The translations under genes were made by a program, and so were the position numbers. Positions 43,548 to 52,871 of a stretch of DNA of 64,000 nt are shown piece after piece (position 1 is the first letter of the stretch; every line of letters starts with the position of its first letter). The notes under the pieces were generated by a model, which saw only the letters and a program-made list of their open reading frames with translations, was not told the origin of the DNA and searched no databases. Origin of the DNA: Paracoccaceae bacterium (GTDB taxonomy: Bacteria > Pseudomonadota > Alphaproteobacteria > Rhodobacterales > Rhodobacteraceae); NCBI GenBank assembly GCA_027489375.1, contig JAIXZW010000005.1, forward strand, positions 372,001-436,000. Reading direction: 5' to 3'.

Positions 43548-44642
43548 CTACCCGCGCAGAACCAGCGCCGTCCCGATCCCGCCCGCCGCCGCAATCGCCG
43601 CCAGCCCGTGCCCCCCCGTCAGGTCATGGAACAGCCGCACGGCAAGGACCGCGCCTGACGCGCCGATCGGATGCCCCCGCGCCAGCGCGCCGCCCCGCAG
43701 GTTGACGCGCAGCGGGTCCAGCCCCGCACCGCGCACACAGGCGATGGCCTGCACGGCATAGGCCTCCATCACCTCGGCCCGCTCCAGCGCCGCCGCCCCG
43801 AACCCTGCCCCGATCCCTGCCGCCTCCAAGGCCACAGCAATGGCCGCCACCGGCGCAAGCCCCGGCTCCACCGGATCGCCACCAAGCGTGACGCCGGACA
43901 CGATCTCGACCGCCCGCGCCGCTCGCGCCGCGACCCGCTCCGAAACGACAAGGCACAGCGCCCCCGCATCCGCCGCCACCGCCGCATTGGCCGCCGTCAC
44001 ATCGCCCGCGACCACCTTCGCCCGCGCCGCCAGCGCAGGCGTCAGGGCGCGGGCAAAGGCATCCTCCGCCACCCCCGCCACGGGCACGATCTCGCGCCGC
44101 ACCGCATCGGTTGCCGCAAGCGCCTTGGCATGGCTCGCCACCGCCCAGCCATCCGCCTCGCCCCGCGTGATCCCCAGACGCCGCGCCAGTCCATCCGCCG
44201 CTTCCGCCATGTCGGGGTCGCGCCCGGGCCAGGGGGTGAACCGCGCCTGCCCATAGGGCAGCCCCTCTCCCGCCCGCCGCCGCTCGGGCCGCAACGAGGC
44301 GCTCTCCACGCCCCCCGCCACGACCACATCCGCCCCCGCCGCCACCAGCGCCCGCGCAATCAGCAGCGCGTCGAGACCGCCCGCGCATTGCCGGTCCACC
44401 GACAGGCCCGCCACCCGCTCGGGCAATCCGGCCAGCAGCGCCACCCGCCGCGCGGGATTGCCGCCCTCGCCCACCGCTTCGGACAGCACCACCTCGTCCA
44501 CCGCTCCGGCGTCAACTCCGGCATCGGCCAGCACCGCCCGCAGCACAGCGGCCCCCATCGCATCGACCGACACCCCCCGCAGCGCGCCGCCCTTCGGCAC
44601 CACCGCCGTCCGCCGCGCCGCGATGACGAAGGCCCGCCTCAC
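43548..44642 (-). CDS. Thiolase-family protein lacking the second catalytic cysteine
   Basis: 364-aa thiolase-fold protein. The acyl-accepting Cys86 (DRQCAGGLDAL) and the His324 loop (GGALARGHPIGASGA) are kept, but the C-terminal CxxGG cysteine that acts as base/acid is Ala351 (IAAAGGIG). It starts at GTG 44642, overlapping the stop of the acyl-CoA ligase gene (GTGA), so the pair is co-expressed. It might act in decarboxylative or altered Claisen chemistry, or be a non-degradative homologue; function cannot be assigned. An ordinary FadA/AtoB label would be unsafe. Confidence 0.8.
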   Translation of the reverse strand: MRRAFVIAARRTAVVPKGGALRGVSVDAMGAAVLRAVLADAGVDAGAVDEVVLSEAVGEGGNPARRVALLAGLPERVAGLSVDRQCAGGLDALLIARALVAAGADVVVAGGVESASLRPERRRAGEGLPYGQARFTPWPGRDPDMAEAADGLARRLGITRGEADGWAVASHAKALAATDAVRREIVPVAGVAEDAFARALTPALAARAKVVAGDVTAANAAVAADAGALCLVVSERVAARAARAVEIVSGVTLGGDPVEPGLAPVAAIAVALEAAGIGAGFGAAALERAEVMEAYAVQAIACVRGAGLDPLRVNLRGGALARGHPIGASGAVLAVRLFHDLTGGHGLAAIAAAGGIGTALVLRG

Positions 44643-45850
44643 AGCCCCGCCTCCGCCGCCAGCCGCGTCAGGTTCGTCTTGCCCGATGACAGCATCGGCC
44701 AATGCTCCATCCAGATCACCGCCCGCGGCGCTTTGAGCACGCCGAACCGCTCACGCGCCGCGCGCAGCATAGCCTCTTCCCGCGCGGCATCGCCCTGCAT
44801 CACGGCGATCATCACCACCCCGCGCAGCGCATCGCGCCTGGGCAGCACCGCCACCTGCGACACCCCCTCCTGCGCGGCAAGGAACAGTTCGATCTCCTCG
44901 GGAAAGACGTTCTCGTCGGCCACCGTCACCATCCGCCCCACGCGACCGGCCAGATGCAACTCGCCCTTCTGCATCCAGCCCGCCTCGCCCACCGACAGCC
45001 AGCCCGCCTTCCACTTCCCCGTGCCGGGATCATCCCCCGCATAGGCGCGGAACAGATAGGGCGACCGCACCCAGACCTCGCCCACGGCGCCATCCTTCAA
45101 CACCTCGCCCTCGCGGTTGCGGATTGACAGGCGCACGCCGGGATAGGCCCGCCCGACCGAATCGACGGGGCTGGCCTCGTCGGCCAGCGTGATGAAGCTC
45201 GCCTCCGCCGCGCCGTAGAATTCGCGCACCACCGCCGTGGGGGCCAGCCGCGCCAGCGCCGCGCGCAGGGCGGCGTCAAGCTTCGATCCCCCCACCAGCA
45301 CCACGCGCAGCGCGGGCAAGGCGGCCCCGCCCGCCTCGACCAGCATCCGCAGTTGGGACGGTGTGGCATAGACCACCTCCACCCCCGCCGCCGCCAGCGC
45401 CGCCCGCTGCCGGTCGGGCCGCATGCCGCCCATCAGATGCACATGGCACCCCGTCTGCGCCCCCTCGAGCGCGCCGTAGAGCGAAAGCGAATGCGCCAGC
45501 CGCCCCAGCACCGCGACCCGCACCGCAGGCCCCAGCCCGAACAACCCCGCATTGATCACGAAACTCGCCAGCCAACTCGCCTGCGTGCGCAAGATGCGCC
45601 TTGGCCGCCCCGACGACCCCGAGGTGAGCGTTTCAAAGACAGGCACCTTGTCGGCCACCGGCCCCTCGGCCTCTTCCAGCCCGATGCGGAAGGGCAATCC
45701 CCGCTCCGCCCGCGCCAAAGCCGCCAGAAGCGCGGCACCGCCCCCCGCCTCGGCCAGAACGTCCCTGTCGTCCGCCGCCGCAGCCACGGGCACCAGCCCG
45801 TCGCAGATCACGGCCAGCCGGTGCAGGCGGAAGCGGTCATCGCTTGCCAT
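44639..45850 (-). CDS. Short AMP-dependent acyl-CoA synthetase-like enzyme
   Basis: 403-aa member of the ANL adenylation superfamily. The P-loop TSGSSGRPRR comes at residues 76-84, whereas full-length ligases have it near 150-190, so the usual N-terminal subdomain is largely missing. Other motifs are intact: EFYGAAEASFIT, the GWLSVGEAGWMQ/LAGRVGRM hinge region, and the C-terminal catalytic Lys in MLSSGKTNLTRL. It is coupled to the thiolase gene. Together they may activate and condense an acyl group; substrate unknown. Truncation appears natural since the start region is clean and no upstream fragment is seen. Confidence 0.82.
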   Translation of the reverse strand: MASDDRFRLHRLAVICDGLVPVAAAADDRDVLAEAGGGAALLAALARAERGLPFRIGLEEAEGPVADKVPVFETLTSGSSGRPRRILRTQASWLASFVINAGLFGLGPAVRVAVLGRLAHSLSLYGALEGAQTGCHVHLMGGMRPDRQRAALAAAGVEVVYATPSQLRMLVEAGGAALPALRVVLVGGSKLDAALRAALARLAPTAVVREFYGAAEASFITLADEASPVDSVGRAYPGVRLSIRNREGEVLKDGAVGEVWVRSPYLFRAYAGDDPGTGKWKAGWLSVGEAGWMQKGELHLAGRVGRMVTVADENVFPEEIELFLAAQEGVSQVAVLPRRDALRGVVMIAVMQGDAAREEAMLRAARERFGVLKAPRAVIWMEHWPMLSSGKTNLTRLAAEAGL

Positions 45851-50148: not shown

Positions 50149-50205
50149 AGCGGGGGGTTTCACACCCCCCGCACCCCCCGTGGGATATTTGCGCGAGCGT
50201 GAAAG
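50149..50205 (+). repeat. GGATATTTG intergenic element, copy 13, overlapping a coding end
   Basis: Stem GCGGGGGGT-TTCAC-ACCCCCCGC, ACCCCCCGT, core GGATATTTG (50183-50191), GAGCGTGAAAG. Identical over 43 bp to copy 11. It lies between convergent metR and the fusion-enzyme gene and supplies the last ~15 codons of the latter. Confidence 0.75.
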
Positions 50206-52745
50206 GGGAAAGGGGTCTTGCGCCACATCCGAAGCAGCGCACGCTGCGCGGCAAAGACAAGCAGCCCCAACCCCACCCCGCCCGCGATGGAAAGCGTGGA
50301 AAAGACCCACGGCGGCACCGTGCCAAGAAACGGCGCGAGGATCACATTCGGCACGAAGCGGTGCGTCAGGTAGATCAGGTAACTCGCCCCCGCCACGGCC
50401 AGCACGGGCCGCACCGCCCATGACGGAAGCCGCATCTGGGGCAGGTAGAGCAGCAGCGCCACCACGCCAAAGACCGACCCGTATTTCAGCCATGCCCCAT
50501 ACCAGTTCCCGCCATAAAGCGCGACGAGCGCCAGCACGGGCGCGGCCAACCCCAGCACCACCCGGCGCTGCCGCCCCTCGGCCACCCCCACCAACCAGCC
50601 GAGAGCGGCAAGGTAGAACACCCAAGCCAGCGTGAATATACGCTGCCCGCCGATGTCCCAGACCAGCGGAAAGGCGAAGCGACAGGCCAGCGCCGCGCCG
50701 AGGAACCACAGCCCGAAACGGAACGGATCACGCGCCACCAGCCGCCGCACGGGCGGCACGGCCACGGCCAAGGCCAGCACCAGCATCATCTGGGCAAAGG
50801 CCTCGACGAACCAGTAAAGGAACGGTAGCCGGTCAAAGGTCGCAGGCGCGCCGATCCCGAAGTTCGAGATCAGGAACGCCGACCCCCAAGGCACCTGCCC
50901 CCAAGCCAGCGCATAGCCCGCCACGATCATGTAATAGGGCACCAGCACCCGTGCGAGCGGTCGCATCAGATGCCCCACCCGCCCCTCGGCCATCGCCGCC
51001 CGCTGGAACCGCGCCAGCATCAGCCCGATCAGCACCACCATCACCGCCGCCCCGCCGTAAAGCGGCCAAAGCGTCTCGTGCGTCACCACCACGGCCAGCA
51101 CGGCCAGCGCCCGCATCACCAGCGCCGTATCGACCCGCGCCACCTCGGGCAGGGGCGCGGCCTTGCCTTCCAGCGCGGCAAGATCGGCCACGGCCAGATC
51201 CTCCCACCGCTCCGGCAGATGGCCAAGCCGCCCCTCCAGCACCATCGCCAGCTCCACATGCCGCAGCGAATCGCCGCCGAGCGTGGCGAAGCTGTCCCCC
51301 GCCGCCACCCGCACCGGATGGAAGGCGCGGGCGAATTCCGCAGCGATCCCCGCCGCGCAGGCATCGCCCTGCCCAGCCGCGAGCGCAGGATAATCCACCT
51401 TGCCACTCGGCAGTCGCGGCAAGGGGCCGTGCCGCAGCTCCACATGCCGCGCCGTCAGCCCCGTCAGCCCCGCGACCAGCGCCGCCACATCGCCGCTACC
51501 GCTTTCGACCGCCACGCAAAGCCGCGCATCGTCGCCCCAGACCGCCGCCACGATGCCCTTCGCGGCCAGCCCCGCCTCCACCGCGTCATGACCCACGCGC
51601 AGCCCCGCGATCTTCGACATGCGCCGCGCACGGCCCGTGATGCGGAACATGCCGTCCGGCCCGACCTCGGCCAGATCCCCCGTCGCCAAGGCGGCAACCT
51701 CGGCCCCCCGCGCCAGATCGTCCCGCCCCATCGCATAGCCCATCATCACGCCCGGCCCGTCATAGACCAGCTCGTTCCCGCGCAGCGACAGCCGCCCCCC
51801 CGGCACCGGAACCCCGATCCAGCCCTGCTCCGCCTCGCAGGCCCGCTCGGGCGGGACATAGGCGATCCGCGCCGTGGCCTCGGTCTGGCCATACATGGCA
51901 AAGAACCGCCCGCCCCGCGCCGCCATCAGCCGCCCCAGGGCCCGCACCCGCGCCGCAGGCATCGCACCGCCCGCCGAGGTCAGCGTCCGCAACTCAGGCA
52001 AATCCGCCGCGTCGAACCCGATCCGCGCCAACACCTCATGCCCGTGCGGCACGGCGGCAAGGCTCGTCGCGCCCACCGCCCGCAGATCGTCCAGAAACCC
52101 TTCGGCCATCAACCCGCCCGGGGCCAGCCAGACCGAAGCCCCCGCCGTCAGATGCGCGTTCAGCACCGACAGGCCATAGGAGTAATGCAAGGGCAGCACC
52201 AAAGCCGCCCGCTCCCCCGCCGACAAGTCCTGAAACGCCGCAATCGCCACGGCGTTCTCCTCGACCGCCCGCGCCGACAGCCGCACCGCCTTGCCCTGTC
52301 CCGTAGAGCCTGATGTCATCATTACCAGCGCCAGATCGGGATGCAGCGCTCCCGCCCCCCGCGCATCGAGCGTCAGCCGCCACCGCCCCGCCACCCGCGC
52401 AAAGACCGCATCGGGCCGGAACCGCTGCCGGAAGCCCTCGACCCCGCCCGCATCGACCAGCGCCACCGCATGGCCCGCGCCCAGCGCGCCCAGATAGGCC
52501 GCGACGAACTCGACCGTCCCCGCCGCCTCCAGCGCCACAAGCTTGCGCCCCGCCCCAAGCCGCCCCGCCCCGAGCCGCGCCGCAAAGCGCGCCGCCCGCG
52601 CGGCAAGCGCGCGGTAGCTCACCTCGGCAAAGCCCGTGGCCGCCGTCCCCGTCACCAGCGCCACCGCATCCCCACGCGCCGCCAACCCGCAGGCAAAGCG
52701 GGGCGGCGACACGGCGGCCGCAATCTGGGGCAGAGCGATATTCAT
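50160..52745 (-). CDS. Adenylation-carrier-membrane acyltransferase fusion enzyme
   Basis: 861-aa fusion of three parts. Residues 1-455: ANL adenylation domain (P-loop TSGSTGQGK 144-152, YGQTEATARIAY 285-296, catalytic Lys449 in LPSGKVDY). Residues 460-540: carrier domain with the phosphopantetheine Ser493 in LGGDSLRHVE. Residues 545-842: acyltransferase-3 membrane domain of about ten helices with His556 in VVVTHET, an arginine/proline loop RPLARVLVPYY and SYLIYLTH. Inference: it activates an acyl or amino acid, loads it on its own carrier and transfers it across or at the inner membrane to a glycan or lipid, like a one-protein Dlt system. The last ~20 residues are read from a repeat element. 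ATG 52745 gives the cleaner start. Confidence 0.83.
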   Translation of the reverse strand: MNIALPQIAAAVSPPRFACGLAARGDAVALVTGTAATGFAEVSYRALAARAARFAARLGAGRLGAGRKLVALEAAGTVEFVAAYLGALGAGHAVALVDAGGVEGFRQRFRPDAVFARVAGRWRLTLDARGAGALHPDLALVMMTSGSTGQGKAVRLSARAVEENAVAIAAFQDLSAGERAALVLPLHYSYGLSVLNAHLTAGASVWLAPGGLMAEGFLDDLRAVGATSLAAVPHGHEVLARIGFDAADLPELRTLTSAGGAMPAARVRALGRLMAARGGRFFAMYGQTEATARIAYVPPERACEAEQGWIGVPVPGGRLSLRGNELVYDGPGVMMGYAMGRDDLARGAEVAALATGDLAEVGPDGMFRITGRARRMSKIAGLRVGHDAVEAGLAAKGIVAAVWGDDARLCVAVESGSGDVAALVAGLTGLTARHVELRHGPLPRLPSGKVDYPALAAGQGDACAAGIAAEFARAFHPVRVAAGDSFATLGGDSLRHVELAMVLEGRLGHLPERWEDLAVADLAALEGKAAPLPEVARVDTALVMRALAVLAVVVTHETLWPLYGGAAVMVVLIGLMLARFQRAAMAEGRVGHLMRPLARVLVPYYMIVAGYALAWGQVPWGSAFLISNFGIGAPATFDRLPFLYWFVEAFAQMMLVLALAVAVPPVRRLVARDPFRFGLWFLGAALACRFAFPLVWDIGGQRIFTLAWVFYLAALGWLVGVAEGRQRRVVLGLAAPVLALVALYGGNWYGAWLKYGSVFGVVALLLYLPQMRLPSWAVRPVLAVAGASYLIYLTHRFVPNVILAPFLGTVPPWVFSTLSIAGGVGLGLLVFAAQRALLRMWRKTPFPFHARANIPRGVRGV

Positions 52746-52871
52746 CGGGACGCCATACAAAACCCTAGCGTTTCAGTCAACAAATTCCTACCCCTCCCAT
52801 GCCCCCTTCCCTTCCGCCCCGCCCCCGTGTAATCCCCGCCCTTTAGCAAAACCGTCCGACCGGAGCCTCCC

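Follow-up and report, generated by a model that had tools for sequence, protein, structure and literature searches.

A fused adenylation, carrier and AT3 membrane acyltransferase protein and its possible part in the response to iron starvation

Introduction

Can a single polypeptide activate an acyl group, carry it and hand it across a membrane, and what would a bacterium gain by it? The question is raised by a gene in a stretch of 64,000 nucleotides from a Paracoccaceae bacterium (assembly GCA_027489375.1, contig JAIXZW010000005.1, positions 372,001 to 436,000), which is called here, at its full length, the window. This gene encodes a protein of 861 amino acids (aa) that joins an adenylation (A) domain, a carrier (T) domain and a membrane domain of the AT3 or TmAT type. 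Our reading, to which we give a probability of roughly one half, is that the fusion activates a carboxylic acid, likely one with two carboxyl groups and no amino group, loads it onto its own carrier and passes it through the AT3 domain to what is likely a surface glycan or lipid, probably within the response to iron starvation. Which acyl group is added, and onto what, is a prediction.

In the proposed mechanism, the adenylation domain would activate a carboxylic acid, which would be loaded onto the phosphopantetheine arm of the carrier, and the membrane domain would pass the acyl group onto an acceptor outside the cytoplasm. Once added, the acidic group would help to collect Fe(III) on the cell surface, from where a transporter of the SfuABC/FbpABC type could take it up. 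No description of the function of this family was found in searches of the open-access literature, where SMc00592 of Sinorhizobium meliloti, discussed below, appears solely as an entry for a hypothetical transmembrane protein. An AT3 branch with adenylation and carrier domains of its own and without the usual form of the motif linked to coenzyme A (CoA) may reveal another route by which the AT3 pore is supplied and would offer a single-chain system for the study of transmembrane acyl transfer, and the link to iron control in two phyla points to envelope modification or to a minimal chelator.

Architecture of the fusion protein

A preliminary description of the window had seen the adenylation, carrier (Ser493) and AT3 membrane domains in one 861-aa frame. 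Profiles and alignment confirm this, and homology to all three domains was found by domain search (Table 1). The counts given here refer to an alignment of 88 rows, in which the window protein was added to 87 clustered genes (91 in all, less four that encode no more than 700 aa); as the window protein is also locus L001, the rows hold 87 distinct genes. The alignments of the AT3 domain and of the carrier used 51 and 38 of the aligned genes. Genes on the loci were called by codon composition, which gives approximate starts and some shadow open reading frames on the reverse strand.

Nine residues are invariant in all 88 rows: Y188, S193, R293, K378, K449, S493, R545, H556 and H795. They include Lys449, Ser493 and His556, the three that the preliminary description had named. 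The fusion has the AMP-binding domain, the A3 motif and the A10 lysine (K449, 88/88 rows) of the ANL family, and the structural neighbours of its adenylation domain are PltF, HitB, VinN and MenE. For the carrier, PF00550 is matched at E ≤ 0.01 by all 38 segments, with the window carrier, taken alone, marginally under the cut-off. PF01757 is matched by 45 of the 51 fused AT3 segments; the window domain gives E 1.1e-4, under the gathering score. A Foldseek search with the model of the AT3 domain returned nothing at E ≤ 0.001, and its TmAT fold was found by a second structural alignment instead.

Spread of the fusion

A protein search with the fusion gives 1130 matches at E ≤ 1e-3, and at least 85% of the query is covered in 119 of the 120 matches listed; the best named match is from Paragemmobacter. 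The fusion is an accessory gene. In a sample of Rhodobacteraceae it is matched in 9 of 149 genomes at E ≤ 1e-60, counting its own genome and with distant paralogues among the matches, and in 5 of 394 at the stricter E ≤ 1e-150. The latter threshold finds it in 9 of the 19 genomes listed from the same genus (own included), while a phylum-wide sample has 14 matches in 398 genomes at E ≤ 1e-60, several of them to the A domain only. Plasmids also carry it: at E ≤ 1e-30 there are 100 matching plasmid records, in 71 of which at least 80% of the query is covered.

Two peptide patterns were used to scan contigs, and the best 80 of at least 511 loci found are, by their record titles, mostly from Alphaproteobacteria and Actinobacteria, with two marine loci (L027 and L036) that we take to be gammaproteobacterial. 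The assignment of genera to Actinobacteria or rhizobia is likewise our assumption. Recurrence in same-genus genomes, rhizobia and many Actinobacteria rules out an assembly artefact or a chance fusion. The survey of homologues for domain order that the preliminary description had proposed finds all three domains together in the aligned members; that description had treated these activities as normally residing on separate proteins and missed that the fused form is widespread, not odd.

Several relatives depart from this pattern. On a plasmid of Leisingera sp. NJS201 (L103:447-3004) the fusion is annotated as two adjacent genes, which may mean that the copy is broken or that the sequence holds an error. 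Distant paralogues occur at L119:7639-10248 (869 aa) and L117:8718-11306 (862 aa), and the carrier motif of the former is SGTS, not GGDS. In Rhizorhapis (L040:12565-14808), an ordinary AT3 gene and a GT2-GtrA gene come after the fusion.

The membrane domain and its acyl donor

In the reviewed AT3 systems, the RxxR and R/K-X10-H motifs are described as essential and thought to bind acyl-CoA, and the donor in the systems tested is given as acyl-CoA rather than an acyl-carrier protein (PMC9558356). The fused domains and 55 ordinary AT3 proteins, all related to a single query (a 56th was left out for length), have in common R-x10-H, G574, W645, G716, Y792 and H795. What separates them is a stricter form of RxxR, the motif of the first cytoplasmic loop: RxxR-hydrophobic-x-P is found in none of the 51 fused AT3 domains and in all 55 close ordinary ones, a comparison that was picked after inspecting the alignment of both groups and whose outcome depends on the form of the motif. 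When the strict form is anchored on R-x10-H, the counts are 0/88 fused rows and 53/54 ordinary proteins, one of the 55 having no such anchor. Where RxxR aligns, the fused domains mostly have Pro or Ser for the first Arg, and the second is still Arg in 26 of 51; many of the fused domains have Trp, Val or Leu for a further Arg that is constant in the ordinary set (column 289). In a wider panel of 29 AT3 matches from 11 genomes, own included, a slightly broader pattern (Ala allowed) finds the motif in 21 of the 27 that could be parsed, L126 and L142 being left out. The AT3 partners of the two split forms described below (L118 and L120) both lack the full RxxR-hydrophobic-x-P.

The absence of this motif from the fused domains fits a donor held on the fused carrier. 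The phosphopantetheine arm, for which no CoA nucleotide pocket is required, would present the acyl group in the AT3 pore in the place of CoA, and R545, H556 and H795 would catalyse or orient the transfer. Judged from sequence, a self-loading AT3 enzyme is well supported, and its working without CoA is a reasoned inference. The suggestion of the preliminary description that no CoA donor is used thus agrees with the absence of the motif, which does not amount to proof of CoA independence.

Substrate and acceptor

When aligned to PltF and VinN, position 189 is Cys in 52 rows, Ser in 35 and Ile in one, so that the Asp typical of amino-acid activation (position 235 of GrsA) is absent from all 88. 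For VinN, it is proposed that Asp230 recognises the amino group of the substrate and that Ser299 and Arg331 recognise its second carboxyl group (PMC7756342); in AfcQ, the corresponding Arg is modelled onto the alpha-carboxylate of Asp (PMC12186527). The invariant Arg293 of the fusion falls on VinN Arg331. Absence of the amino-binding Asp together with this invariant Arg points to a dicarboxylic acid that carries no amino group as the likely substrate. Exceptions to the Asp rule are known, McyG being one of them (PMC11253843). The model of the 2-oxoglutaryl-ACP ligase AmcH scores 64 bits against a cut-off of 370, in keeping with a dicarboxylate, and other ligase models score equally or better.

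The stand-alone A domains closest to the fusion belong to genomes from another class of the same phylum. Five such loci (L112 to L116) encode ligases with the same YS[YF]G and MYGQTEA..R pocket as the fusion. Open reading frame starts indicate an SDR-like gene in four of the five and a small carrier gene beside the ligase also in four; LuxE and LuxC are confirmed by Pfam in L112 and were deduced from gene size and order in L113 to L116. Several genes around these ligases look, by eye, like sugar or glycan genes. There are also split forms, in which an A-T gene adjoins an AT3 gene, in opposite orders in L118:8795-11771 and L120:369-3162. The A-T gene of L118 has the GGDSL motif, although PP-binding is not detected in it by Pfam (E ≤ 0.001), and the pair adjoins a sugar transferase (PF02397), a glycosyltransferase and a sulfotransferase. 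Because the related ligases and the L118 pair sit with glycan-type genes, the acceptor is likely a surface glycan, with a lipid or a small molecule as alternatives.

The preliminary description had proposed that the protein activates, carries and exports an acyl group onto a surface polymer. By sequence, the parts that this would need are indeed held in one polypeptide, and the split pair in a polysaccharide locus is in keeping with the proposed acceptor.

The link to iron

A binding protein of the ferric-iron type is encoded within 5 kb of the fusion gene in 35 of 90 loci, that is, in 34 of the 50 actinobacterial loci and in one Rhizobium (L031). As a rough yardstick, the 3.9-Mb genome of the window holds one such homologue at E ≤ 1e-10. 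These proteins are 29 to 100% identical to that of L055. For four of the 35, a comparison was made with solved structures, and iron binders came out as the best matches in every case: 8k7n (3.7e-129) and YfuA (3.3e-128) for L055, 7w3w (1.5e-77) for L063, 7li0 (6.3e-80) for L084 and 1y9u (7.9e-142) for L031. Where the binding-protein gene is upstream of the fusion gene, its direction is the same in 16 loci and opposite in 12; where it is downstream, the direction is the same in four and opposite in three. In L055 and L071 the transporter ATPase gene overlaps the fusion gene. Locus L023 has a permease 4.6 kb and an ATPase 7.5 kb away and was not counted, as no binding protein was matched at the cut-off; its clustered neighbour has a weak score as a binding protein of the phosphonate type.

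A scan for 19-bp boxes of the DtxR/IdeR type, with up to five mismatches to the consensus allowed, predicts 47 sites in the 1.008 Mb of the 50 actinobacterial loci. All but one of these (46/47) fall within a span that runs from 300 bp before to 60 bp past the called start of the fusion gene or the binding-protein gene. Such predicted sites occur in 38 of the 50 loci, 12 of which have no binding-protein gene nearby. One shuffled copy of the loci, preserving base composition only, gave one site.

In Alphaproteobacteria, RirA binds IRO boxes, TGA-(N9)-TCA (PMC6386902), and such a box lies in five of ten RirA ChIP peaks (PMC8822346). The exact box is present in 18 of 32 regions upstream of fusion genes, where about 0.1 per region would be expected from its density elsewhere in the loci (0.097 per 260 bp over whole loci, true sites included; 25 of the 32 regions are 350 bp long). 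It occurs in 17 of the 20 rhizobial-type regions, in 16 of them on a TTGAC -35 box; eight of the 20 are from Sinorhizobium/Ensifer and so not independent, and L099, included here, is filed as Roseateles. In L100, from Rhodobacteraceae, an exact RirA-type box was found by eye (TTGACTGATTTTGTCA). The exact box is absent upstream of the gene in Marinobacterium (L027) and in the Oceanospirillaceae locus (L036). Sites similar to GACTTACTCNNAT were seen by eye upstream of the gene in both of these loci, twice in L027.

The fusion gene of S. meliloti lies three genes before ndk; as ndk is SMc00595, it should be SMc00592. Table 2 of PMC2848241 gives log2 changes of -0.44, 1.47, 1.30 and -0.23 for SMc00592 in the swarming set of a fadD mutant. 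The swarming-responsive set has 36 genes, 17 of them iron genes, with which SMc00592 is induced together on swarm agar; iron starvation as such was not the condition of that experiment.

Taken together, boxes and linkage support a role of the family in iron nutrition in Actinobacteria and rhizobia, as predicted from sequence. For the window copy, the iron link is drawn from relatives only. The preliminary description was right that this copy stands alone and overlooked that its relatives are tied to iron by transporter linkage and boxes.

Weighing the alternatives

The proximity of a transporter and iron boxes is the usual setting of siderophore genes, and both a ferric-iron-type ABC transporter and iron boxes are found near the fusion. 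The AT3 domain might therefore join the carrier-bound acid to a small soluble acceptor, giving a minimal, secreted siderophore that feeds the transporter. We regard this as unlikely, since no other biosynthetic family recurs beside the fusion in distant loci, as far as neighbour clustering shows, and the split form in L118 and the related ligases lie in loci with glycan genes. Surface glycans are the usual targets of AT3 enzymes, and SMc00592 belongs to a swarming gene set, so the fusion might instead acylate an envelope polymer in a general envelope or swarming response that is induced by low iron and has no part in iron binding. The nearness of the transporter in four arrangements exceeds what shared regulation would need, which makes this distinctly unlikely.

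Still more improbable is an AT3 domain that runs on acyl-CoA while the A-T part loads another acyl group for a different enzyme, the fusion merely placing the two together. R545 and H556, motif residues tied to acyl-CoA binding, are retained, as is the Arg at the second RxxR place in half of the fused domains; nevertheless, the full RxxR-hydrophobic-x-P is gone from all of them and from the two split partners, and the three domains stay joined in the aligned members. An extension of our own reading, which we hold as tentative and rather doubtful, is that the fusions are widespread iron-starvation machines, CoA-free, self-loading TmAT enzymes that hang acidic, iron-binding acyl groups on the surface and so concentrate Fe(III) for SfuABC/FbpABC. 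If so, a siderophore function would be built into the envelope by one gene.

Several observations weigh against the reading of a self-loading, iron-linked envelope acyltransferase. The substrate is deduced from two pocket positions. The loading of the carrier with phosphopantetheine is not assured: the genome has a single PF01648 match, a 151-aa frame, and a search with PF17837 found no 4PPT_N or Sfp-type transferase in it, for which reason an AcpS-type enzyme may be the loader. Bare RxxR occurs in the same stretch in 55/88 fused rows and 46/54 ordinary AT3 proteins and does not separate the groups, and two or three of the 88 fused rows match the motif once Ala or Lys variants are allowed. For the binding proteins tested, the top NCBIfam models are for 2-aminoethylphosphonate, far under cut-off. 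In the actinobacterial set, 16 of 50 loci, some of them incomplete, have no such protein within 5 kb, and 12 of 50 have no box. The promoter of the window gene shares the rhizobial layout, but its second half-box is TAG, not TCA (same-genus variants are TTGACTGAAACGCTAGG in L104 and TTGACTAAAACACTTGG in L105), and no exact TTGACTN7TCAN7TA exists in its genome. Finally, six annotated plasmid regions near the clade of the window have no neighbour gene in common.

Comparison with known systems

In D-alanylation of teichoic acids, DltA, DltC and DltB adenylate the substrate, load it on a carrier and export it through a membrane acyltransferase of the MBOAT type. The comparison with Dlt drawn in the preliminary description holds for this logic of adenylation, carrier loading and membrane export and fails for the membrane partner, which is AT3/TmAT instead of MBOAT. 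The fusion further differs in being one polypeptide, in a pocket without the amino-binding Asp and in its link to iron. The epsilon-poly-lysine synthetase is a single-chain non-ribosomal peptide synthetase with A-T followed by membrane helices and a polymerising C-like domain; the fusion has the same order of A-T and membrane helices, but its membrane part is an AT3 transferase, not a C-like domain.

Among AT3 (PF01757) or TmAT proteins such as OafB, OatA and HGSNAT, the fusion is set apart by the A and carrier domains at the N-terminus of its own chain, by the lack of RxxR-hydrophobic-x-P and by a donor that is likely a carrier thioester, not the acyl-CoA that PMC9558356 reports for the systems tested. 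Among the fusion partners of AT3 that reviews name are SGNH, alanine/serine racemase and NRF, with others in Eukarya. Like VinN-type aspartate-activating enzymes, the A-T-AT3 protein has the motif MYGQTE and, at position 331 of the pocket, Arg; unlike VinN, it has no amino-binding Asp, has Ala for Ser299 and a loop one residue longer, and is fused to a carrier and AT3. The stand-alone A ligases of the LuxC/LuxE-type loci (L112 to L116) are 40-48% identical to it (five rows) and have the same pocket motif, but in four of the five loci (by eye) the small carrier has a gene of its own, and the partners are LuxE/LuxC instead of AT3.

Features of the window

Table 1. Positions of the fusion gene, its domains and residues, and its putative promoter in the window
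Feature	Position	Strand	Remark
A-T-AT3 fusion gene, 861 aa	50160..52745	minus	
Adenylation (ANL) domain, about residues 10-459	51369..52718	minus	Pfam AMP-binding 2.7e-35
Adenylation-domain motifs			TSGSTG at 144-149, K378, K449
Ser189	52179..52181	minus	place of amino-binding Asp (GrsA 235, VinN D230)
Arg293	51867..51869	minus	place of VinN Arg331, 88/88 rows; predicted contact to second carboxylate of substrate
Carrier (PCP/ACP) domain, about residues 466-530	51156..51350	minus	PP-binding in 38/38 segments
Ser493 in GGDSL	51267..51269	minus	predicted phosphopantetheine site, 88/88 rows
AT3/TmAT membrane domain, about residues 537-845	50211..51137	minus	
R545-x10-H556	51078..51113	minus	AT3 R/K-X10-H motif, 88/88 rows
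His795	50361..50363	minus	88/88 rows, also in ordinary AT3 proteins
Putative promoter TTGACT-17-TATGGC	52752..52780	minus	by eye
Degenerate RirA-type box TGA-N9-TAG	52779-52765	minus	2 mismatches; overlaps promoter

Elsewhere in the window, on the minus strand (43548-45850), a stand-alone AMP-binding ligase of 403 aa is encoded at 44639-45850; its gene overlaps one of the thiolase family (43548-44702), and the pair is a possible two-gene acyl pathway.
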